Virus record (IMG/VR): IMGVR_UViG_3300021474_000012
Coordinates: 1-40,399 of that record
DNA from: a virus
Direction: 5' to 3' (one strand)
DNA length: 40,399 bases
Shown: piece by piece, positions 8,681-23,359 of the stretch
How the letters are laid out: every line of letters begins with the position of its first letter
How positions within the stretch are numbered: position 1 is the first letter of the stretch
The notes under the pieces: generated by a model
What the model was told of the DNA's origin: nothing
The model's database searches: none
What the model saw: only the letters and a program-made list of their open reading frames with translations
Program-made: the position numbers and the translations under genes

Positions 8681-8772
8681 GTTCGATCATCCATACCGTC
8701 GATGCGATCGACTTCCTTCGCCTGCAGCCGACTGGCAGCATAGATGCGGTTATCAACAAAGCGGGGAGATAA
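8677..8772 (+). CDS. Very small protein, GTG start
   Basis: A 31-residue frame, MSSIIHTVDAIDFLRLQPTG and on, that starts at GTG 8677 in a GTGA overlap with the preceding stop and ends at TAA 8770-8772, just before the methyltransferase starts. The same GTGA arrangement marks several better supported genes here (1354, 19443, 25956, 34818). The evidence is only arrangement and plausible amino-acid content, with no family match. It may simply be a coupling leader for the methyltransferase gene. Confidence 0.45.
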   Translation: MSSIIHTVDAIDFLRLQPTGSIDAVINKAGR

Positions 8773-8773
8773 A

Positions 8774-9604
8774 ATGCAATGCGAACAGCTCACCTTTTTG
8801 CCGGCGCCGGTGGCGGACTCCTGGCCGACCTCATACTGGGCCACACTCCAGTACTGGCTGTGGAATGGGATGACTACTGCTGCCAAGTCCTCCGCGAGCG
8901 ACGAGATGATGGATGGTTCCCTGGGCTGCACGTGCACGAAGGCGATATCCGGCTGTTCGATCCATCCGAGTGGCAGGGACGAGTGGATTGCATCTCAGCG
9001 GGCTTCCCTTGCCAGCCTCACAGCATGGCCGGGAAACAACTCGGCGCCGAAGATCCGCGCGAGGGGTGGCCGCATGTCATCGGAAACATTCGCGTTCTTC
9101 GGCCTCGATTCGCATTCCTGGAAAACGTGCCTGGGTTGGTCTCCGGAGGATTCATCGGTACCGTTCTCGGGGACCTGGCCGCGCACGGGTATCATGCGCG
9201 ATGGACGGTGCTCAGCGCTGAGGCCGTTGGAGCTCCGCACGTCCGAGAGCGCTGGTGGTGCCTTGCCGAGAATCCCCACGCCATGTGCGGGGGACGCGAA
9301 GAGCACATGCAACAGCACGGCGACGCGGCATCGAATGCCGCCGACCGGAGTTCACGCCGGCGACACCCTGACCGATTACGTCAGGAAGTATCCCGCCCCA
9401 AAAGCCAGGGACTGGAAGGCATCGGGGGGGGCAGCGAGACACTCCCAGGATCTTCCCGGCGCGGTTGGTGGGGCAGTGAACCCGCCATGGGTCGAGTGGC
9501 TCCAGCGGTTCCCAATCGGGTTCACCGCATCAAGGCTCTGGGCAATGCTCAGGTCCCGCTCTGCGCGGCGGCAGCGTGGCGAATCCTCGGAGGCCCTTAA
9601 ATGA
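8774..9604 (+). CDS. Open frame overlying the whole methyltransferase gene (possible second protein)
   Basis: A 276-residue frame, in a different phase from the methyltransferase at 8779 and open across all of it. It contains, in order, SHSWKTC (113-119), GTWPRTG (133-139), PTPCAGDAK (168-176), PKARDWKASG (209-218) and NPPWVEWLQRFPIGF (236-250). I recall this motif series from stand-alone hypothetical phage proteins often found with DNA methyltransferases. ATG 8774 is five bases from the GGAG at 8765-8768, while the methyltransferase ATG 8779 is ten bases away. A second start at 9074 has GAGGGG seven bases upstream. In 9290-9470, the variable region of the methyltransferase, codons of this frame look more typical of the phage than those of the methyltransferase. 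Whether it is translated is unproven. Confidence 0.5.
   Translation: MQCEQLTFLPAPVADSWPTSYWATLQYWLWNGMTTAAKSSASDEMMDGSLGCTCTKAISGCSIHPSGRDEWIASQRASLASLTAWPGNNSAPKIRARGGRMSSETFAFFGLDSHSWKTCLGWSPEDSSVPFSGTWPRTGIMRDGRCSALRPLELRTSESAGGALPRIPTPCAGDAKSTCNSTATRHRMPPTGVHAGDTLTDYVRKYPAPKARDWKASGGAARHSQDLPGAVGGAVNPPWVEWLQRFPIGFTASRLWAMLRSRSARRQRGESSEALK
8779..9600 (+). CDS. DNA cytosine-5 methyltransferase
   Basis: A 273-residue enzyme that transfers a methyl group from S-adenosylmethionine to C5 of cytosine, probably protecting phage DNA from restriction. Motifs in order: I, HLFAGAGGG (5-13); the Glu29-Trp of motif II; IV, GFPCQPHS (75-82) with catalytic Cys78; VI, ENVPG (115-119); VIII, RER (156-158); and the IX-X region PNRVHRIKALGNAQVP (245-260). 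The target recognition region (about 165-240) is short and rich in Arg, Gly and Ser. No restriction endonuclease lies beside it, so it is an orphan. The whole gene is overlaid by another open frame (8774-9604), which constrains the recognition region. Confidence 0.92.
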   Translation: MRTAHLFAGAGGGLLADLILGHTPVLAVEWDDYCCQVLRERRDDGWFPGLHVHEGDIRLFDPSEWQGRVDCISAGFPCQPHSMAGKQLGAEDPREGWPHVIGNIRVLRPRFAFLENVPGLVSGGFIGTVLGDLAAHGYHARWTVLSAEAVGAPHVRERWWCLAENPHAMCGGREEHMQQHGDAASNAADRSSRRRHPDRLRQEVSRPKSQGLEGIGGGSETLPGSSRRGWWGSEPAMGRVAPAVPNRVHRIKALGNAQVPLCAAAAWRILGGP

Positions 9605-9987
9605 TCCCCTGCCTGAAACAACAGACCGTCTGCCGCATCATCCGCGCCGATGGCCGGGTATACGAAGCGACGAACCTCTGCGCGACCGATGGCCTGAAGG
9701 TTTGCCCGCGGGTGACTGCCGGCTGCTCCACCGGTACCGGCTACGAGCTCTGCGGGTCGACGCATGCCGAGGCCAACTGTGCCAAGCGGGCGGCCGAGAG
9801 CGCCGATGTGCCCGGGAAGGCCTACCTCTACGGGCACACCTGGATCTGCAAGGCGTGCCAGGACGCGCTGGTGGCCGTCAATGTCCGGGAGTTCATCATC
9901 GTTCCGCTGGGCAGCCTGAAGCATGCGGGAGACGCCCGGTCTGAGGATCGACAGCCCGGACCTTACACGGACACCGGCGCGTCCTAG
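9601..9987 (+). CDS. Cytidine/deoxycytidylate deaminase-like protein
   Basis: A 128-residue zinc enzyme of the cytidine deaminase superfamily. The pattern is STHAEANC with His55, Ala56 and catalytic Glu57, followed by WICKACQ with Cys83 and Cys86 as the other zinc ligands. Spacing (about 25 residues between HAE and CxxC) fits dCMP deaminases. It would convert dCMP to dUMP for dTMP synthesis, or act on a modified nucleotide. It starts 1 base after the methyltransferase stop and probably shares its transcript. Neighbours acting on cytosine suggest a shared nucleotide theme, which is inference. Confidence 0.75.
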   Translation: MIPCLKQQTVCRIIRADGRVYEATNLCATDGLKVCPRVTAGCSTGTGYELCGSTHAEANCAKRAAESADVPGKAYLYGHTWICKACQDALVAVNVREFIIVPLGSLKHAGDARSEDRQPGPYTDTGAS

Positions 9988-10493: not shown

Positions 10494-11311
10494 TGGATTG
10501 GATCAATTTACATATCCCGAGCGTGCTCAAGTCCCCCGAATGTGTGGGCAGCACACCCGCCGAATTGGGCACATGGCTTCGCGTTTTGGCCTATGCATGT
10601 GGCTTGGAGTGTGGAGGGACCATCGAGGGAGCTGCCACCTGGAAAGACAGGCAATGGCAGCACGCTTGTGGGGTCACTCTCCGGGAAGTGAAGGCCGCGA
10701 ACCGCCTTTTGAAGATCGAAGGCGGCAACCTCATTATCAACGGGTACCCTGTCAATTCAGAACTTAGGGTGAAAAAGAACCGAGGTTCAGGCATGGCGGG
10801 AGCGATGGCGAGATGGCGAAATGCCAATGGCGCCAGGATGGCAAGTGCTAATGGCGAAACGATGGCACTTGCTAATGCGGAAGGAGAAGGAGAAGGAGAA
10901 GGAGAAGGAGAAGGAGAACGGAAGAAGACAATTGCGCCTGCGGCGCCAATGGCACTTGGCATAGCACCTGCCATAGCACCTGCCATCGCTCCCACCAAGA
11001 AACCGCGACCCCCAAAGACCCCCGAAGCCCAATGCATCGCCCGCCATGAGTTCCGAATCAAGGGCAAGCCGGCCAATTGCCGAGCAGCCATCGCCGAGGC
11101 CATCAAGCGATCATCGGTTGAGGCCGTCGACCAGCTCATGGGCCAGGTCGATGGGGTGTGGGCCAGCGATCTCCTGAAAACGATCGGGCTTGGGCAGCCG
11201 GCCGAGATTGAGCCGCCGTTCGGCAGCGAGATGTATTACCATCGGGAGGCAGTTCGCATTGGGCTCGAGAATGCGAAGACACCTGAGCCGGGCGCGGAGG
11301 CGCAGGCATGA
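10493..11311 (+). CDS. Replication initiator-like protein with Glu-Gly repeat linker
   Basis: A 272-residue protein beginning MDWINLHIPSVLKSPECVGS. Residues 1-100 (TWLRVLAYACGLECGGTIEG..., WKDRQWQHACGV) match the N-terminal winged-helix-like domain that I know from phage replication initiator or organiser proteins encoded before a helicase gene. A tandem six-base repeat gives EGEGEGEGEGEG (about 125-138), then a Pro/Ala-rich linker with repeated IAPA units, then a helical C-terminal domain (from about 180). It would bind origin DNA and help load the primase-helicase encoded next, with which it overlaps by ATGA. GGAGG sits eight bases before the ATG. Confidence 0.72.
   Translation: MDWINLHIPSVLKSPECVGSTPAELGTWLRVLAYACGLECGGTIEGAATWKDRQWQHACGVTLREVKAANRLLKIEGGNLIINGYPVNSELRVKKNRGSGMAGAMARWRNANGARMASANGETMALANAEGEGEGEGEGEGERKKTIAPAAPMALGIAPAIAPAIAPTKKPRPPKTPEAQCIARHEFRIKGKPANCRAAIAEAIKRSSVEAVDQLMGQVDGVWASDLLKTIGLGQPAEIEPPFGSEMYYHREAVRIGLENAKTPEPGAEAQA
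10880..10917 (+). repeat. Six-base tandem repeat (GGAGAA) coding Glu-Gly
   Basis: About six copies of GGAGAA in frame inside the initiator-like gene. Copy-number change alters linker length without shifting the frame. Its purine strand is uniform, so slipped-strand variation between phage isolates is likely. Confidence 0.9.
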
Positions 11312-13113
11312 AACCGGACGTTTGCGACAAGCGCGCGCTTATCGATGCGCTCGAGGGCATGGGCGCCGAGTTCAAAGGCGATGCGTTCAAGTGTCTCTGG
11401 CATCCAGACGGCAGCCCATCGGCTGGCATCTACGCAGGCGCGGATAACCATTGGCGGTACAAGTGCCATCAACCATCGTGCGGTGTGCATGGCGATCTCA
11501 TCGACCTTCAGGCGATGAACGAAAAGAAAACGCCAAGCGAGATCATCAAGCAGACCACCGTCCACAAGACCAAGGCGCAGCGATACCATGGCACACTCGA
11601 GGAATGCGTGCGCGACTCCGCAGCGTATCGAAAACAAACCGTCGATCGCACTTACCATTACCGGTCACATGACGGTCAGCAAATACTACTCGCAGTGTCG
11701 CGCTTTCTCACTGGCGACATCAACCATGACACAGGCAAGCCCAAGAAATCATTCCACCAAGCGCATTGGACCGACCGCGGATGGGTGAGCGCGAAACCAC
11801 CAGGAAAGCAGCCGATCTATAATTTGCCCGGCATCGCATCGGCATCGGCGATCGTTGTGGTTGAGGGCGAGAAATGCGCCGATGCACTGATTGCGCTTGG
11901 GCTCTGCGCCACCACCAGCCCAGGCGGATCCGGCAACGCGAAAGATGCCGATTGGTCACCGCTCAGCGGCAAGCGCGTGGTCATCATGCGCGACAATGAC
12001 GAGGCAGGCCAAGGCTATCACGATGACATCGTGGCCATTCTGCAAGCGCTGCCGACACCACCGGTGCACCTGGCCAGCGTCGATGTCACCAAGCTGGGAT
12101 TGCAACCGAAAGAGGATGTGTGCGAATACATCGATGCCCTGATTGGCGATCCGCGCGAAGGCATGATCGAAGTCTTGCGCGCTGCGATACCGATCGGACA
12201 GACGACACCGGTTGATGCTCTGTTCGCGCACTATGCCGACCAGGCCAGCGGTTCGTATTTCCTCGCACCGTGGCCGTTCCAATTCCTGACCAAGATCAGC
12301 CGCTCACTCCTGCCAGGCAAGGTCGCCATCGTCGGAGGTCCACCTGGTGGCGCCAAATCCTGGTTCATGCTCGAGACGGTGTTGAATCTGATTCGCCTGA
12401 ACATCACCGTGGCGCAATTGGCGCTTGAGGAGCCGTGGCCATGGCACGCAAGCCGCGCGCTCGCTCACCTGTCGCAGAATCCCGATATACTCGACAATGA
12501 ATGGGTGAAGGCGAATCAATCATTGGCAAATCTCGCGGCCGAGCACCACAAAGAAACGCTGAACAAACTTGGCAAGGCGATGACGTGCCGCGGCAATCCG
12601 ACATTCGCTGACTGCCTCGAATGGATCGCCGATCGCTGCAAGGAAGGCGTGCGCGTGCTGGTCATCGATCCAATCACGCTCGCCGATCCTGGGCACGATG
12701 ACAAGTGGACCGTCGATCGAACGTTCATGGCGAAAGCCAAGGAAATCATCGACAAGCACGGCGCGAGTCTGATCCTGGTAACGCATCCGACCAAATCAGC
12801 ATCGCGCGGCCGCGGACCAACCACAATGGACGATATGGCAGGCGGCACGGCATATCCACGCGCGGCCGCTTCGGTGCTGTGGCTGACCAGTCTCGAGAAG
12901 CCGACCAAGAAACAGATCCTAACGCACCATGGGTATCTGGACTCGCTCGAGATTCACAAAGAAATCATCATTATGAAATCGCGCGATTCGACTGGCGCTG
13001 GTTCGCGCATTGGATTTCGCTTCATTGGTCTGCACTTCCAGGAGATGGGAAAGATCATCAGCGACAGGCCAGGCACGGCTGCGCAGAATCCGCAGCAGGA
13101 GATCGGACAATGA
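11308..13113 (+). CDS. Primase-helicase fusion (zinc domain, TOPRIM, RecA-like ATPase)
   Basis: A 601-residue replication protein. Domain order: zinc-binding domain with Cys29, His32, Cys53 and Cys58 (CLWHPDG...YKCHQPSCGVHGDLIDL); TOPRIM domain with VVVEGEKCADAL (183-194), Glu186 being the first acidic residue, and MRDNDEAGQGY (227-237); RecA-like helicase domain with Walker A GGPPGGAKS (343-351), Walker B VLVIDP (450-455), and LILVTHPTKS (488-497) as the following sensor strand. This arrangement resembles T7 gp4-like fused primase-helicases, though the helicase domain looks like the RepA/AAA_25 branch. It would unwind DNA at the fork and may lay down RNA primers. It overlaps both neighbours by four bases. 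Confidence 0.88.
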   Translation: MKPDVCDKRALIDALEGMGAEFKGDAFKCLWHPDGSPSAGIYAGADNHWRYKCHQPSCGVHGDLIDLQAMNEKKTPSEIIKQTTVHKTKAQRYHGTLEECVRDSAAYRKQTVDRTYHYRSHDGQQILLAVSRFLTGDINHDTGKPKKSFHQAHWTDRGWVSAKPPGKQPIYNLPGIASASAIVVVEGEKCADALIALGLCATTSPGGSGNAKDADWSPLSGKRVVIMRDNDEAGQGYHDDIVAILQALPTPPVHLASVDVTKLGLQPKEDVCEYIDALIGDPREGMIEVLRAAIPIGQTTPVDALFAHYADQASGSYFLAPWPFQFLTKISRSLLPGKVAIVGGPPGGAKSWFMLETVLNLIRLNITVAQLALEEPWPWHASRALAHLSQNPDILDNEWVKANQSLANLAAEHHKETLNKLGKAMTCRGNPTFADCLEWIADRCKEGVRVLVIDPITLADPGHDDKWTVDRTFMAKAKEIIDKHGASLILVTHPTKSASRGRGPTTMDDMAGGTAYPRAAASVLWLTSLEKPTKKQILTHHGYLDSLEIHKEIIIMKSRDSTGAGSRIGFRFIGLHFQEMGKIISDRPGTAAQNPQQEIGQ

Positions 13114-15680: not shown

Positions 15681-17639
15681 ATGGTTTCCTTCGCCATCAC
15701 CCTCCGCGCCGATTACCGCTCCCAATTGCTTGAGGAAGTCCCGAGCTATTTCGACTTCGCCAAGACCATGATCCTACCCGAGGGCAAGAGCCGAGGCCGC
15801 TCGATGCTCCTGGCCGAAGACAGCGCGCAGCCGAACCACCCGGCGCAGCTCTGCACCTTGGCTGCGCTCGATGCGGGATACCAGGAAGTGGTTGTGGCCA
15901 AGCCGGTGCGCGATGGCGGAACACAGGTGGCGCTGGTGCCGATGTTCCGGCGCGCGATCAAGGAAAAGCAACGATCGCTGCTCGCCTATCCGACCATGGA
16001 CTCATCGAAAGATATTTGGGGAACCAAGGTTGGTCCGACCTTGGAAGCGTATGGCGGCCAGGAAATCCTCGACGGTGGTGGCAGCCGCGGCGGCGCTGCT
16101 CGCCTGGTCAAGCTCCCCGATGGTGGCGAGTTTATGCTTCGCAGTGCCGGCGGCCGCGGTCAATCCGGCCAGGCCGCCGTGCATGGCGACGTCATCATGC
16201 TCGATGAGCTGGACGATTGGGAAGATGAAGAAACCATCTTGAACATGGTGAAGCGCGTTGCCGACTCGCCATCGATCCTGGTCATCTACATTTCAACGGT
16301 CAAGAATGACACCGATTCGAAGATTCTGAAGCGGTTGAGACTCGGCACCGATACCCATCTCGAGTTCCCATGCGTGCACTGCGGCGCCTTCCAACGGCTG
16401 GTCTGGTTGCGCGTCAACTTGGTCAAGGCCACGTATTGCTGTGAGCATTGCCCGGCCGAATGGTCAGAGGCAGACCGGCGCGCATCGCTGCGGAACTGGA
16501 AACGGGTCGACAAGAATCCAGGCGCCAAAGCGTTTTCCATTTCCTGGACGTGCCTCGATTCGCCGCTGGTGACGCTGCATAACGAAATCCATGGCACGGC
16601 AGCGCTCCCTGGCTACCTGGCTGCGCTCCACCAGGTCGAAGTCCTGGGCGACCATTCCCAAATGCGGTCATTCAAGCGTGACCGGCTCTGCCAGGTCTAC
16701 ACCGATGACACCCAGGACGAGGATGGAACCAACATCGTCATCGACCGGAAATACCTTTCCGATCGGTCGATGGCCTTCGGCTGGGCTGTGCCGGTGGTCG
16801 ATCTCCATCCGGAAAAGCTCTGGTCGCGCTATGTGACCGAGGTTCCGGCCGAGGCCGAGCAAGTCATGGTAGCAGTCGACGTCCAGGGAAACCGGCTCTA
16901 TTGGGATGCCGTCGCGTTCAACATGGTCGGCAGCGAATGGGATATCGCCTGGGGGCAGGAGCGATGCCGCATGCACCAGGTTGGCAATACCTGGGAGCCG
17001 GAACCGTGGGGCCCGGGTGACCTGATACAGACGCTGGATAGAACGGCGGCGTTCATTGCAACCATCACCACGCTTCCCATGATCGCACCCATGGTTGATA
17101 CCAGATACGAGACGGAAGAAATCGCAATCTGGCTTAAGAATAACCGAAGCTGGCGTGGCGTCGTCGGCGTCGATTCGATCCGTGAGCCGGCCGGCGAGAT
17201 GGAGGAAACCGCAGAAATCATCCGCGACCTTCGCGGCATCCCCGGCCTGATAAATTACGATCGTCAATGGCAGCCGAGGCTAGGCCGCTATCGCGTGCTC
17301 ACCACGGCCGCACGCGAACTGGTGCACGATGGTTTCCGCAAGTCACCTGGTGAGCCTGGCGCATCACTGCTGCCGAACGGCCTGCCCACCAATGACCATT
17401 ACATCGGCCACCTATGCTCGCACCAATTGCGGCGCGATCCGAAAACGCTGAAGGTGAAATGGGTTCAGGTCACCAAGCGCGATGACCACCTGGACACCAG
17501 ATCCTACATCAAAGCGCGCATCAAGCTCGCCTGCGAACGGTTCATCAAAGAGCAGAAGCGCGCCCGATCGATGTCATCGCAACAACTCATCGCTGACCAC
17601 CAGGCGCAGCGGAACATGGAAATAATCAAAGGACGATAA
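15681..17639 (+). CDS. Terminase large subunit, lambda GpA-like
   Basis: A 652-residue packaging motor. The N-terminal ATPase half is recognisable by HGDVIMLDELDDWEDEE (about 169-185, Walker B), followed by ILVIYISTVKNDTDSKIL (203-220, motif III-like). A zinc finger (CVHCGAFQRLVW ... CCEHC, about 234-258) is typical of the GpA family. The second half contains VMVAVDVQGNRLYW (395-408) with the first nuclease Asp, and later GVVGVDSIREPAGE, TNDHYIG and RDDHLD(T)RSY. It uses ATP to drive DNA into the prohead and cuts at the packaging site. Length is normal. A purine-rich site precedes ATG 15681. Walker A is degenerate and I could not place it with confidence. Confidence 0.9.
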   Translation: MVSFAITLRADYRSQLLEEVPSYFDFAKTMILPEGKSRGRSMLLAEDSAQPNHPAQLCTLAALDAGYQEVVVAKPVRDGGTQVALVPMFRRAIKEKQRSLLAYPTMDSSKDIWGTKVGPTLEAYGGQEILDGGGSRGGAARLVKLPDGGEFMLRSAGGRGQSGQAAVHGDVIMLDELDDWEDEETILNMVKRVADSPSILVIYISTVKNDTDSKILKRLRLGTDTHLEFPCVHCGAFQRLVWLRVNLVKATYCCEHCPAEWSEADRRASLRNWKRVDKNPGAKAFSISWTCLDSPLVTLHNEIHGTAALPGYLAALHQVEVLGDHSQMRSFKRDRLCQVYTDDTQDEDGTNIVIDRKYLSDRSMAFGWAVPVVDLHPEKLWSRYVTEVPAEAEQVMVAVDVQGNRLYWDAVAFNMVGSEWDIAWGQERCRMHQVGNTWEPEPWGPGDLIQTLDRTAAFIATITTLPMIAPMVDTRYETEEIAIWLKNNRSWRGVVGVDSIREPAGEMEETAEIIRDLRGIPGLINYDRQWQPRLGRYRVLTTAARELVHDGFRKSPGEPGASLLPNGLPTNDHYIGHLCSHQLRRDPKTLKVKWVQVTKRDDHLDTRSYIKARIKLACERFIKEQKRARSMSSQQLIADHQAQRNMEIIKGR

Positions 17640-19181: not shown

Positions 19182-19446
19182 GTCCAACGTCACGAACCAG
19201 CAATCGAGCAGCGGCACCATATCGACGCAATTGACGTCGGTTCGCTCGCTGATCTCATCGATTGAGGGCGCAGGCGGCAACCAGTCATATTCGCATGGCG
19301 GCCGCAGTTATTCGCGCGTGGATCTCCCATCGCTCTATGAGCGCGAGGAGCGCCTAGAAATCAAGCTCATGCGCGCGAAGGCCAACGAGGCGAACGAATC
19401 GCTGATGTTCGTCCGCGGCCGCCCTTCCGGGTGTGGCAACTCGTGA
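19180..19446 (+). CDS. gpW-like head-tail joining protein
   Basis: An 88-residue protein. The second half, GGRSYSRVDLPSLYEREERLEIKLMRAKA, matches the pattern of gpW/gp6-type head-completion proteins, which carry a short hairpin followed by a helix with YSRVDLxxLxxxxxxL. In lambda, gpW seals the portal after DNA packaging and lies directly before the portal gene, as here. The family is small and weakly conserved. ATG 19180 has a G-rich segment immediately before it that is held in a hairpin, so translation may be regulated. Confidence 0.65.
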   Translation: MSNVTNQQSSSGTISTQLTSVRSLISSIEGAGGNQSYSHGGRSYSRVDLPSLYEREERLEIKLMRAKANEANESLMFVRGRPSGCGNS

Positions 19447-21179
19447 GCGACGTTCGCCCCATCGGTGTGCGGCTGATGCCCGGCCTGATGCCGAAGGTGG
19501 CGCGTTTCGTCAACCGCGTGCTCAATGTCTTTCAGCCCGCAACGCTGGACATTCCGAAAGAGGAGCACGGGCGCGGTGTGCGGAACTGGATCAACGCGAT
19601 GGGCTACCAGACGGCCTACCCGTCCACGGATCCCAATCGGCTTTTCCTCGAGAACTGGTTCCCGCGCAATGCGACGGCCGATCAGACCCTCGTCTGGAAT
19701 CTCACGAACATCATCGCGCAAATGCGCCAGCTCGAGCGCAGCAATTCATCGGTCAAATCGCTGGTGGAAGGCTGGAATGCCGACTGTGTGGCGAGCGGAA
19801 TCGATGTCGAGCCCGACACCGGCAGCGACCAGCTCAACGAGCGCATTCGCCCGGTGTGGCTGAACTGGTGCGAAGACATGACCCCGCAAGGTCATTCGCT
19901 GTGGGAAGTGCAGTGCATGAACATGAACGAGTGGTGCACCGGCGGCGCATCGCTCCTGCGCGAGGTCATCCTGCACGAGCGCGTGGCCGATGGCAAGCTG
20001 CCCATCACCTTCCAGCCGCTCGAGGTCGAATGGCTCTGCCTGATGCCGTGCGGCATCGTGGGCAAGGACAATAATTTTTCGCGCGGTGTCGAGTCGGACA
20101 AGCTCGGCCGACCGGTCGCCTATCACGTCATGGACTATAACCTCCTAAACCAGATGGGGCTCGGGAATGCGTTTGGCGGTCCTGGCGATGTGGTTCCGGC
20201 GGATCAGATCATACATGGTTTCGAACCGCGCCGGCCGCGGCAGTCGCATGGCGAGCCCTTGCTTGCCGTGGTCATCGAGCGCGCATACCAGCTCGGCAAG
20301 CTGGTCGACATCGAACTCAAGGCGGCCGCGAATACCAGCGTGCTCAGCGGAGTTATCAAGACCAGGTGGATGGAAGATTTCGAGTCGACCCGCGTGGTGG
20401 TCGACCAGTGGGGAAACACCATCAGCGCCTCGCCGCAGCAATCGCCCGTGAATGACATGCCGATCGGAACCTGGGCGCGTCTTCAGCCCGGCGAGGAGGT
20501 TGAACTCAAGGCCAACCCTCGCCCGAATGTGGGCATAGCCGAGTTCGCCAAGTTCATCGATGGTCAGATGGCAGCTTCAACGCGCAGCTCGACCTACTAC
20601 CTGAGCAAGGATCCAACCGGATCCAACTACAGCCAGGGGCTCAGGGATGAGCACGTCGGCAAGCGCATGCGCGCACCGATCCAGGGCACGTTCGGCAAAT
20701 ACAACGCGGGCAAGGTCTATGAGAAGGTGCTTCCCTGGATCCTGCTGAGCCTCGGCATCGAGATGCCCAAGGATCCGAACGCGCGCCGCAAAATGTTCGG
20801 GCACAAGATCCTTCCCGATATGCCGGAATACCTGGACCCGCAGAAGGGCTCGGCCGCGAGCAAGTTCATGATCGATTCGAACCTCAGCACCGAGGAGGCC
20901 GAATTGGCAGCGCGCGGCAAGGATTGGCGCAAGGTGCGTGCGCAGCGCATCAAGGAAACCCAGGCGCGCGATGTCGATGCCGTGGCCCGCATCAAGGCCC
21001 TCAAGGCAGAGCTGGTCAAGCAGGGGATCACCGATGTGACCTGGGCGCAGATCGCAGCCCTGAGCGGCGCCACCACCGCGCCGGCCGCCTTCCTCGACGC
21101 GATGGAGCAGCCAGGCGACGACGATTCCGGCGATGGATCGACCCCGCCCAAGAAGCCAGCCAAGAAGGTGGCCGCATGA
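19443..21179 (+). CDS. Portal protein, lambda family
   Basis: A 578-residue protein forming the dodecameric ring at the head vertex through which DNA is packaged. Features of the lambda B family: NRVLNVFQPATLD at the start, then ARGxxRNxxxAxxxx-like helices (QLERSNSSVKSLVEGWNADCVASGI, about 103-127), RPVAYHVMDY, VPADQIIHGFEPRRPRQSHGEPLLA (around 255-280) and PTGSNYSQGLRDEH (about 388-400). I place the start at GTG 19443 (GTGA overlap), and ATG 19431 (four residues longer) is possible. The C-terminus is Lys/Ala-rich. It ends with an ATGA overlap into the protease-capsid gene. Confidence 0.9.
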   Translation: MSDVRPIGVRLMPGLMPKVARFVNRVLNVFQPATLDIPKEEHGRGVRNWINAMGYQTAYPSTDPNRLFLENWFPRNATADQTLVWNLTNIIAQMRQLERSNSSVKSLVEGWNADCVASGIDVEPDTGSDQLNERIRPVWLNWCEDMTPQGHSLWEVQCMNMNEWCTGGASLLREVILHERVADGKLPITFQPLEVEWLCLMPCGIVGKDNNFSRGVESDKLGRPVAYHVMDYNLLNQMGLGNAFGGPGDVVPADQIIHGFEPRRPRQSHGEPLLAVVIERAYQLGKLVDIELKAAANTSVLSGVIKTRWMEDFESTRVVVDQWGNTISASPQQSPVNDMPIGTWARLQPGEEVELKANPRPNVGIAEFAKFIDGQMAASTRSSTYYLSKDPTGSNYSQGLRDEHVGKRMRAPIQGTFGKYNAGKVYEKVLPWILLSLGIEMPKDPNARRKMFGHKILPDMPEYLDPQKGSAASKFMIDSNLSTEEAELAARGKDWRKVRAQRIKETQARDVDAVARIKALKAELVKQGITDVTWAQIAALSGATTAPAAFLDAMEQPGDDDSGDGSTPPKKPAKKVAA

Positions 21180-23359
21180 AATCGATCGTCCCAATCCTGC
21201 GCACGCGCGATGCCGCGGCCGACACCAAGTTCCGGCATTACGAAATCCGCGAGGAGGATGCGAACGTCGAGAACGGCATGATAACCATGACCGCCTCGAC
21301 CAATGATCGCGTCGGCTTCGGTGGCTATGGCGAGATTCTGGACCATGACGCGCGCAACGTCGACATCAGCACATGCCGCGCGCTGCTCCTGAACCACCAA
21401 TCGGGCAACATCGTCGGCCGCATCACCGGCATCAAGATGGAGAACGGCCGCAGCTCGGTCACGGCCGAAATCTTCTCCGATGCCAAACTGGCCACCGGTG
21501 TGCCGGTGCGCGCTGCCGTGAAGGCCGGTGCGCTGCGCGGTGTCTCGATCGGCTACAATTACGACGATTCCGATTGCGATTTCAACGACGACACCCGCAC
21601 CATCACCGTTCGCAAATGGCGCCTTCTCGAGGTTTCTCTCACCCCCATCCCCCGCGATAGCGCCGGAACCGTGCGCTCGCTCCCCGCCCATTTCACGCGG
21701 TCAGCCGCACCAAATCCCCGACAGGAAATCACCATGGACCCCATCGCCCTCGCCAAGCTGTTCAAGACCTATGCCGCCCGCATGGAGTTCATCGAACAGC
21801 GCATCGCCGCCAAGGTGGCCGATTTCGCCACCCTCGAGCGCGAGGTCATCGCGCACGACACGGCTGAGAAGGCGCGCGAGGCGGCTGCAGTGCTGGCCCA
21901 GGATGAGGCGACGCGCGCGCGCCAGATGGCCGCCGATCGCCAGCGCGACCAGCTCAAGCTCCAGATCATCAAGGTTGCCGACAGCCACGGTCTGCGCGGC
22001 CTGGACTATACCGAGGAGGCGGAACTCCTGGCCGGTGGGACGATCGATCTCGCGCTCGCCCGCATGCTCACCGACAAGGCCAAGGGCGTCCAGCTCCAGC
22101 GCACCGGCTCGGCCAGCGGTGTTCCCAAGATCGGTGTGGCCACCATCGAGAACGCGGCCGAAGACAAGTTCCGCGAGGCGGCCATTGACGGCCTGCTCGC
22201 CCGGTCCAACCCGACCTGCCGCCGCGAGGATGGCACGGTGGGCATGTACGACCAGGTGCACAAGGACAAGGGCATGCGCCTCGAGGCCGGCCTGACCAAC
22301 ATCGCGCGCCACTGCCTGACCAAGGTCGGCAACAACGGCTGGCGCATGTCCAAGGAAGACGTCGCGCAGTGGATCCTGGACACCCCGCGCATCTCGCGCG
22401 TCGACACCATGCAGAGCCGCGCGGCCAATGAAGCCTACGGACAGTTCCCCGGCCTGATGAGCAACTACCTCGACAAGGTGGTGGCGATGGGCTTCCAGTC
22501 GACCGAGGATGTGACCTACAACATTTGGGCCACCCCCCGAATCTGCCTCGACTTCAAGCCCTTCATCGGCACCGCGTTGAGCGTCGGCAACCTCCAGCAG
22601 ACCACCGAAAACGTGGCCTTCCCGGAGCTGACCGCGGCCGACATGAACTACACCGGCACGCTCGGCCTGTTCGGCGCCACCATCACCCTGACCTATCAGC
22701 TGCTCACCAGCGATGACCTGGGCGAGTGGTACCGCTGCCTCGGCATGTCGGGCGCGGTGGCGCAGCGCACCCGCGACCGCCTCATGTACGTCTGGCTGAT
22801 GGCCGGCCCCGGCACCAATGGTGTCTATGGCGCGTCGACCGGCTGGAACCAGGCTTCGCTCTCCGGTCTGGACTATGTGACCGGTGTGGCGCTCGGCACC
22901 GTGGGCAACCTCGATACCGTCCGCGACAACTTCAGGAAGAAGATCACCCCGGCCGGCCAGTACCTCGGTATCGGGCCGAAGTACCTCATACATCCGATCA
23001 GCCTCTCGCAGGCTGCCGACCGCGCCACCGGGCGCGCGCAGAGCCCCGGCGAGCCGAACTACCTGGCTTCGAACAAGGCCAGGCAAATCCAGTGTGTCGA
23101 GGTCAACTACATCGATGATTCTTCCATCTCTGGATACAGCGCGCTGGCCTACTACCTGATCGGCCCGCAGTCGATGGACACCATGAAGTTCGCCACCCTC
23201 GAGGGCATGCAGACCCCCCAGGTACTCGAATTTGACCCGGGGGCAACTGCGGCGAGAAACTGGAAAATCATGGATGCCTTTATCCCGGTCTTCCCGGCCT
23301 ACACCGACTCCAACGGCATCCTCAACCGCCCGCTGGGCATCACCAAGGGCACCGGCTGA
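21176..23359 (+). CDS. Prohead protease fused to major capsid protein
   Basis: A 727-residue polyprotein. Residues 35-170 are a U35-type prohead protease: GFGGYGEILDHDA (48-60), LLLNHQSG (71-77) with catalytic His74, and RGVSIGYN (121-128) with Ser124, then LEVSLTPIPRDS. After a linker with a helical scaffold-like region (190-320, Arg/Ala/Glu-rich) comes the capsid domain, FMSNYLDKVV..., NLQQTTENVAFPELTAADMNYTG and the C-terminal strand. The protease is expected to process the scaffold and itself during head maturation. ATG 21734 (M187), just after AGGAAATCACC, could give a separate capsid start. Fused protease-capsid genes are known in some phages. The start overlaps the portal stop. Confidence 0.85.
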   Translation: MKSIVPILRTRDAAADTKFRHYEIREEDANVENGMITMTASTNDRVGFGGYGEILDHDARNVDISTCRALLLNHQSGNIVGRITGIKMENGRSSVTAEIFSDAKLATGVPVRAAVKAGALRGVSIGYNYDDSDCDFNDDTRTITVRKWRLLEVSLTPIPRDSAGTVRSLPAHFTRSAAPNPRQEITMDPIALAKLFKTYAARMEFIEQRIAAKVADFATLEREVIAHDTAEKAREAAAVLAQDEATRARQMAADRQRDQLKLQIIKVADSHGLRGLDYTEEAELLAGGTIDLALARMLTDKAKGVQLQRTGSASGVPKIGVATIENAAEDKFREAAIDGLLARSNPTCRREDGTVGMYDQVHKDKGMRLEAGLTNIARHCLTKVGNNGWRMSKEDVAQWILDTPRISRVDTMQSRAANEAYGQFPGLMSNYLDKVVAMGFQSTEDVTYNIWATPRICLDFKPFIGTALSVGNLQQTTENVAFPELTAADMNYTGTLGLFGATITLTYQLLTSDDLGEWYRCLGMSGAVAQRTRDRLMYVWLMAGPGTNGVYGASTGWNQASLSGLDYVTGVALGTVGNLDTVRDNFRKKITPAGQYLGIGPKYLIHPISLSQAADRATGRAQSPGEPNYLASNKARQIQCVEVNYIDDSSISGYSALAYYLIGPQSMDTMKFATLEGMQTPQVLEFDPGATAARNWKIMDAFIPVFPAYTDSNGILNRPLGITKGTG

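Follow-up and report, generated by a model that had tools for sequence, protein, structure and literature searches.

The closest described counterparts of the locus considered here are C5-cytosine methyltransferases made of two polypeptides. In M.EcoHK31I (YGGCCR) the large polypeptide contains motifs I-VIII and X together with the predicted recognition domain, and the small one supplies motif IX (Lee, Kam and Shaw 1995, as described in PMC3404938). M.AquI (CYCGRG; Karreman and de Waard 1990) is likewise a two-polypeptide C5 methyltransferase, with both motifs IX and X residing in its small subunit (PMC3404938). We analyzed a comparable gene on a 40,399-nucleotide stretch of viral DNA (IMG/VR record IMGVR_UViG_3300021474_000012), the whole of which is termed the window below. 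Its methyltransferase, alpha, is overlapped on the same strand by a second open frame, beta, and we estimate a probability of roughly 0.8 that the two form a heterodimeric split C5 methyltransferase encoded in nested frames. The beta subunit of M.EcoHK31I is reportedly a protein of 176 residues that is encoded inside alpha in another frame. An EcoHK31I-type layout is already known; what is new here is the breadth of the arrangement, its absence from annotation and the evidence that places the recognition region in beta. No paper on the family-wide overlap was found in the literature that we searched.

The window belongs to the genome of a tailed phage, as indicated by its Exonuclease VIII-like (1324-2148), primase/helicase (11308-13113), terminase large subunit (15681-17639) and portal (19431-21179) genes. 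A further ORF at 20924-23359 has a match (9e-58) to phrog_4523, a family of head proteases fused to major head proteins. Alpha (8779-9600, plus strand, 273 aa) is a C5-cytosine DNA methyltransferase with motifs I-VIII and X and without an in-frame motif IX. Matches were obtained to phrog_363 (4e-62) and, over residues 1-164 only, to PF00145 (3.4e-31), and the protein carries the PCQ, ENV, RER and GNAQVP elements of the C5 methyltransferase catalytic domain (motifs I, IV, VI, VIII and X). In its AlphaFold2 model most of residues 1-174 exceed a pLDDT of 90 and the motif X helix is again predicted with high confidence, and the top Foldseek matches of this model were M.HhaI structures over 169 columns, the best of them (1.1e-14) being an M.HhaI mutant. 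The folded N-terminal part of alpha superposes on M.HhaI, a single-chain C5 methyltransferase; unlike M.HhaI-like enzymes, however, alpha contains neither a recognition domain nor motif IX in frame, the Pfam match stopping at residue 164 and the pLDDT being low over residues 175-245. The latter residues (9301-9513; pLDDT below 50) are predicted to form an unfolded linker over the recognition region of beta, which is to say that alpha is predicted to be unfolded where ordinary enzymes have their recognition domain and motif IX. The ORF directly after alpha (9601-9987) shows a weak, below-cut-off similarity to cytidine/dCMP deaminases.

The frame one base ahead of alpha (+1) is open on the plus strand from 8744 to a stop at 9602-9604, and contains ATGs at 8744, 8774 and 9074, from which products of 286, 276 and 176 residues, respectively, could be read. 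The original prediction had described a frame open at 8774-9604 in a phase other than that of the methyltransferase, along with a series of protein motifs and two ribosome-binding-like sites, and all of these were located as claimed. The first site, GGAG at 8765-8768, could serve alpha (8779) and perhaps also a long form of beta from 8774, 5 nt downstream of it, and the second, GAGG at 9061-9064, lies 9 nt before the ATG at 9074. The motifs in the +1 frame are SWKTC (9116-9130), GTWPRTG (9170-9190), a first PTP unit PTPCAGDAK (9275-9301), of which T69 and P70 are nearly invariant in 86 aligned betas, a second PTP unit PAPKARDWKASG (9392-9427), with P107, T108 and P109 as nearly invariant columns, and the nearly invariant motif IX-like segment NPPWVEWLQRFPIGFT (9479-9526), which has the form LNPxWVEWLMGFPxGWT in the family. 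The openness of the frame alone is weak evidence, because it was also stop-free in 1.6% of 5000 trials in which the synonymous codons of the methyltransferase were permuted with its protein and codon usage unchanged.

This frequency of open frames in shuffled genes fits an explanation in which the +1 frame owes its conservation solely to that of the protein sequence and codon usage of the methyltransferase and encodes no second protein. We compared the frame with a beta profile from which the window had been left out, using synonymous permutation of the methyltransferase codons as the test. The beta of the window scored 156 bits (155.7), whereas the 1000 permutations averaged 57.6 (sd 9.0) and did not exceed 90.5; since shuffled genes still reach about 58 bits, part of the resemblance is indeed a by-product. 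The remainder is not readily explained in this way: in the 116 full-length loci of the multi-locus test (115 chosen by alpha plus the window, with 60 permutations each) the real beta score exceeded every permutation in 116/116. Stops in relatives, which had been named as an observation that would speak against the second frame, numbered 0 in the beta span of these 116 loci, with 454 expected. Canonical methyltransferases lack such a +1 frame, the four ordinary enzymes used as one control (NgoMIV, HaeII and similar loci) reaching no more than 28 bits and having 7-28 stops, and 27 ordinary C5 methyltransferases with an in-frame motif IX reaching at most 20.6 bits with 6-25 stops in all but one.

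The by-product explanation also fares poorly when substitutions are counted per alpha codon position and the ratio of third to first positions is followed along the gene. This ratio is 2.5-3.0 upstream of about 9061, 1.3-2.0 at 9061-9259, where both frames are constrained, 0.37-0.52 at 9259-9529, and 2.5-4.2 downstream of 9529. In the variable region the wobble base of alpha is thus slow and its first position fastest, and the fastest position there is therefore the wobble base of beta. The values for alpha positions 1/2/3 in this region were.382/.134/.161,.372/.123/.175 and.356/.139/.149 in three sets (alpha-chosen viral, alpha-chosen genome and beta-chosen loci), the flip of phase being present in each separately, and.426/.196/.130 in pairs containing the window, where 23, 11 and 7 changes were counted; we give these figures without a P value because the sequence pairs are not phylogenetically independent. 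Further, in two mycobacteriophages the beta-type ORF extends past the end of alpha. Against this evidence a mere by-product is extremely unlikely, and we conclude that the second frame is real and under protein-level selection.

Permutations limited to parts of the gene agree with the phase profile. Permuting the window codons upstream of 9074 left the beta score almost unaffected (151.7 versus 155.7), whereas permuting 9074-9250 alone lowered it from 155.7 to 128.3, and permuting any one of 9074-9250, 9251-9471 or 9472-9540 brought it to about 128-130, with 0/500 reaching the real value in each case. The suspicion that SWKTC and GTWPRTG are conserved merely as a by-product of the underlying methyltransferase motifs is at odds with the drop in beta score in 500/500 permutations of 9074-9250. 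Two stretches can be distinguished: a dual-coded one (9061-9258), in which the ENV to RER motifs of alpha coincide with SWKTC and GTWPRTG of beta, and one dominated by beta (9259-9529), with the PTPxxxDxK units and the motif IX-like segment. The second-frame constraint is clearest in the latter, the variable recognition region, as had been anticipated. The selected span of beta is about 9061-9529 and not the whole methyltransferase gene; 8774-9604 is too long in the light of both the region-limited permutations and the phase profile. Of the fully overprinted gene that was originally proposed, the nested gene is real but its constraint does not cover all of the methyltransferase gene.

The start of beta in the window is most likely 9074, since the constraint begins at about 9061, permutation upstream barely matters and GAGG precedes this ATG by 9 nt; beta would then span 9074-9604 and comprise the recognition region and the motif IX-like segment. 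A longer product from 8774, starting five bases ahead of alpha as first suggested, could make use of GGAG and of a frame that is open there, but we regard it as unlikely, as no beta constraint was detected upstream of about 9061 and the homolog on Paenibacillus polymyxa plasmid pAP1 (L408) has stops in the upstream part of the beta frame. Beta start sites are not uniform across relatives. Beta starts that are preceded by an SD and lie 50-70 codons before ENV occur in 50 loci, compared with 17.2 +/- 3.0 expected from permutations; the window has no start at this enriched position, and its relative L210 lacks the 9074 start. The variability of the starts could be taken to favor a programmed +1 frameshift, the product of which would join the N-terminus of alpha to the recognition region with motif IX and would replace or accompany a free beta, and so could the canonical order of the motifs on the DNA, as a single shift would restore most of an ordinary enzyme. 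Such a shift would, however, drop motif X, which is retained in alpha. The enrichment of SD-preceded starts over permutations and the existence of M.EcoHK31I as two separate polypeptides (PMC3404938) likewise weigh against it, making a frameshift improbable in comparison with a separately translated beta.

To gather relatives, loci were collected in three ways: with a degenerate DNA pattern representing the C-terminus of beta, with the beta of Synechococcus phage S-H1, and with an alpha-only protein alignment that was searched in viral contigs and bacterial genomes. With the second frame as query, tblastn gave matches in 177 phage records, none of which reached 60% identity, and scans of viral contigs found no close relatives of the window proteins; a profile from eight divergent betas was too variable for scanning. 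Among the methyltransferases chosen by alpha, the beta profile matched the +1 frame of 80/80 from viruses and of 80/80 from bacterial genomes, counts that apply to relatives of this alpha type and not to all C5 methyltransferases, because alpha searches return the best-matching loci. Over all sets beta stood in the +1 relation to alpha in 370/370 loci, with a GC range of 36-71% across the first 210, and additional Enterobacterales loci were consistent with the same relation. Motif IX lies in beta and motif X in alpha in 310/370 loci, and in none is motif IX present in both frames.

No stand-alone beta was found among the 370 loci. The original prediction had envisaged a family of stand-alone hypothetical proteins that arose from such overlaps, but the 'stand-alone' proteins that we checked (SOVA965, ReT1v-2) proved to be overlapping ORFs of which one frame had been annotated. 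Annotation of the GenBank phage records L001, L005 and L008 retains one frame only or mixes the frames: in SOVA965 the CDS labeled 'DNA-cytosine methyltransferase' is beta and alpha is unannotated, and in ReT1v-2 and Mwe-JY08 beta is annotated as 'hypothetical protein'. In ReT1v-2, a Rhodococcus phage, the IX-X part lies in the alpha frame and the PTP region in the beta frame. In cluster A mycobacteriophages the beta-type ORF has an annotation of its own, as a second 'DNA methylase' gene, which carries motifs IX and X and overlaps the annotated first gene by only a few bases; in mycobacteriophages L002 and L004 the beta-type ORF runs past the end of alpha. In Mycobacterium phage Seabastian (L003, 1435-2194) a change of frame near 1800 divides alpha between two annotated genes, and relative to beta the two halves have their frames swapped. 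A homolog in the prophage of E. coli PCP07014 (L372, 3985-4746), near excisionase and integrase, is annotated as a pseudogene and has an internal stop.

As to what beta is, the +1-frame protein of the window matches phrog_1008 ('DNA methyltransferase') at 3e-20 over residues 83-232, and this family was matched by all 83 aligned betas. The phrog_1008 profile, with 329 positions, extends through motif X, as do the second ORFs of mycobacteriophages, whereas the beta of the window ends after motif IX. Beta itself had no match in Pfam or PDB, nor did its model have a significant structural match in PDB with Foldseek; predicted alone, it reached a pLDDT of 66.5 and a pTM of 0.30, which is poor to moderate confidence. 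Poor folding in isolation would be expected if beta folds on its partner, but does not in itself support such a mode of folding. The consensus of the aligned family is SSWKTxQ..FSxTWPRxGxMRNG..WPTPxA..WPTPTAxDxK..GGxLNPxWVEWLMGFPxGWTDL, and across the 370 loci its recognition region holds 0-6 [LW]PTPxAxDxK units, mostly 25-45 residues apart. The terminal conserved segment has a spacing identical to that of canonical motif IX, e.g. RLTPRMTARIQGFPDDW, and a Streptomyces homolog (L366), which contains RRLTARFAEWLMGLPDGWVT..IGNGVVP, can be aligned at 13.2 bits with a canonical IX-X profile. Typical betas scanned singly against that profile were not clearly above shuffled sequence, and the assignment of motif IX to beta is based on the spacing and on the bridging Streptomyces sequence instead of a strong direct profile match. 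The beta of plasmid pAP1 contains two copies of the motif IX-like segment.

The lack of a Pfam family or structural match for beta might also be expected of a separate phage protein with another function, such as an inhibitor of host restriction, that became coupled to the methyltransferase gene by chance. This we consider very improbable, for the beta-type ORFs of cluster A mycobacteriophages possess methyltransferase motif X and have matches in three 'DNA methyltransferase' families (phrog_1008, phrog_10223 and phrog_116), alpha has no predicted folded recognition domain, and the coupling holds in 370/370 loci with no stand-alone beta. Rather than an unrelated protein, beta is most likely a second subunit of the same enzyme, constituting the recognition half that is absent from alpha. 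In the proposed enzyme, alpha would provide cofactor binding, the catalytic cysteine and motif X, with an unstructured linker in place of the recognition domain, and beta, in its most likely form from 9074, would supply the recognition region with its PTPxxxDxK units and motif IX. The two would be translated from separate starts on one mRNA and assemble into a single enzyme, the target specificity of which would lie in beta. This enzyme may methylate the phage DNA, probably to evade host restriction or to mark the phage's own DNA.

Along the DNA the order is motifs I-VIII, recognition region, IX and X, as in single-chain enzymes. Because this order is still canonical, an ordinary enzyme appears to have had its recognition region and motif IX displaced into the +1 frame, and this suggests an origin in which alpha came to read through the displaced region as a linker to motif X. 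Given such an origin, only the beta segment over ENV to RER of alpha would be truly overprinted; this segment has no known counterpart, and the recognition region and motif IX-like segment resemble a displaced methyltransferase domain. More tentatively, and with rather less confidence than even odds, we suggest that the catalytic and recognition halves in overlapping frames represent an ancient and common nested pair, retained across phages and bacteria that differ widely in base composition, in which beta acts as a modular specificity subunit (0-6 PTPxxxDxK units) and the alpha frame over it merely as a linker that stays open to connect with motif X.

M.EcoHK31I, an isolated curiosity of 1995, seems to be a single instance of a dual-coding arrangement that is very widespread. 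As annotation usually retains one frame, such enzymes are mistaken for complete single-chain methyltransferases or for hypothetical proteins, and assays of alpha alone would yield false negatives. The locus further offers a natural system for the study of dual coding, as it combines a stretch constrained in both frames, one dominated by beta and flanks that are constrained in alpha only.

In comparison with the known two-polypeptide enzymes, the distal variable region and motif IX lie in the second polypeptide of M.AquI, a layout that recurs in mycobacteriophages L002 and L004. The small subunit of M.AquI carries motif X as well, whereas in the window this motif is in alpha, so that the window gene is not of the AquI type; both motifs IX and X occur in the second polypeptide of only a few relatives, such as L002, L004 and L366. 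M.EcoHK31I belongs to a restriction-modification system, whereas no restriction gene was recognized beside the window gene. The predicted recognition domain of M.EcoHK31I is in the large subunit, whereas in the window it is beta that holds the conserved recognition-type region, over which alpha is predicted to be unfolded. The window matches the motif layout described for M.EcoHK31I, a large subunit with I-VIII and X and a small one with IX, GNAQVP being in alpha and NPPWVEWLQRFPIGFT in beta. The small subunit of M.EcoHK31I is said to be nested in another frame, and in the window family a nested subunit in another frame is conserved as a protein, as seen in the constant +1 relation (370/370), the phase flip and the shuffle tests. 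The beta of the window, read from 9074, has 176 residues, the length that is also reported for the beta of M.EcoHK31I.
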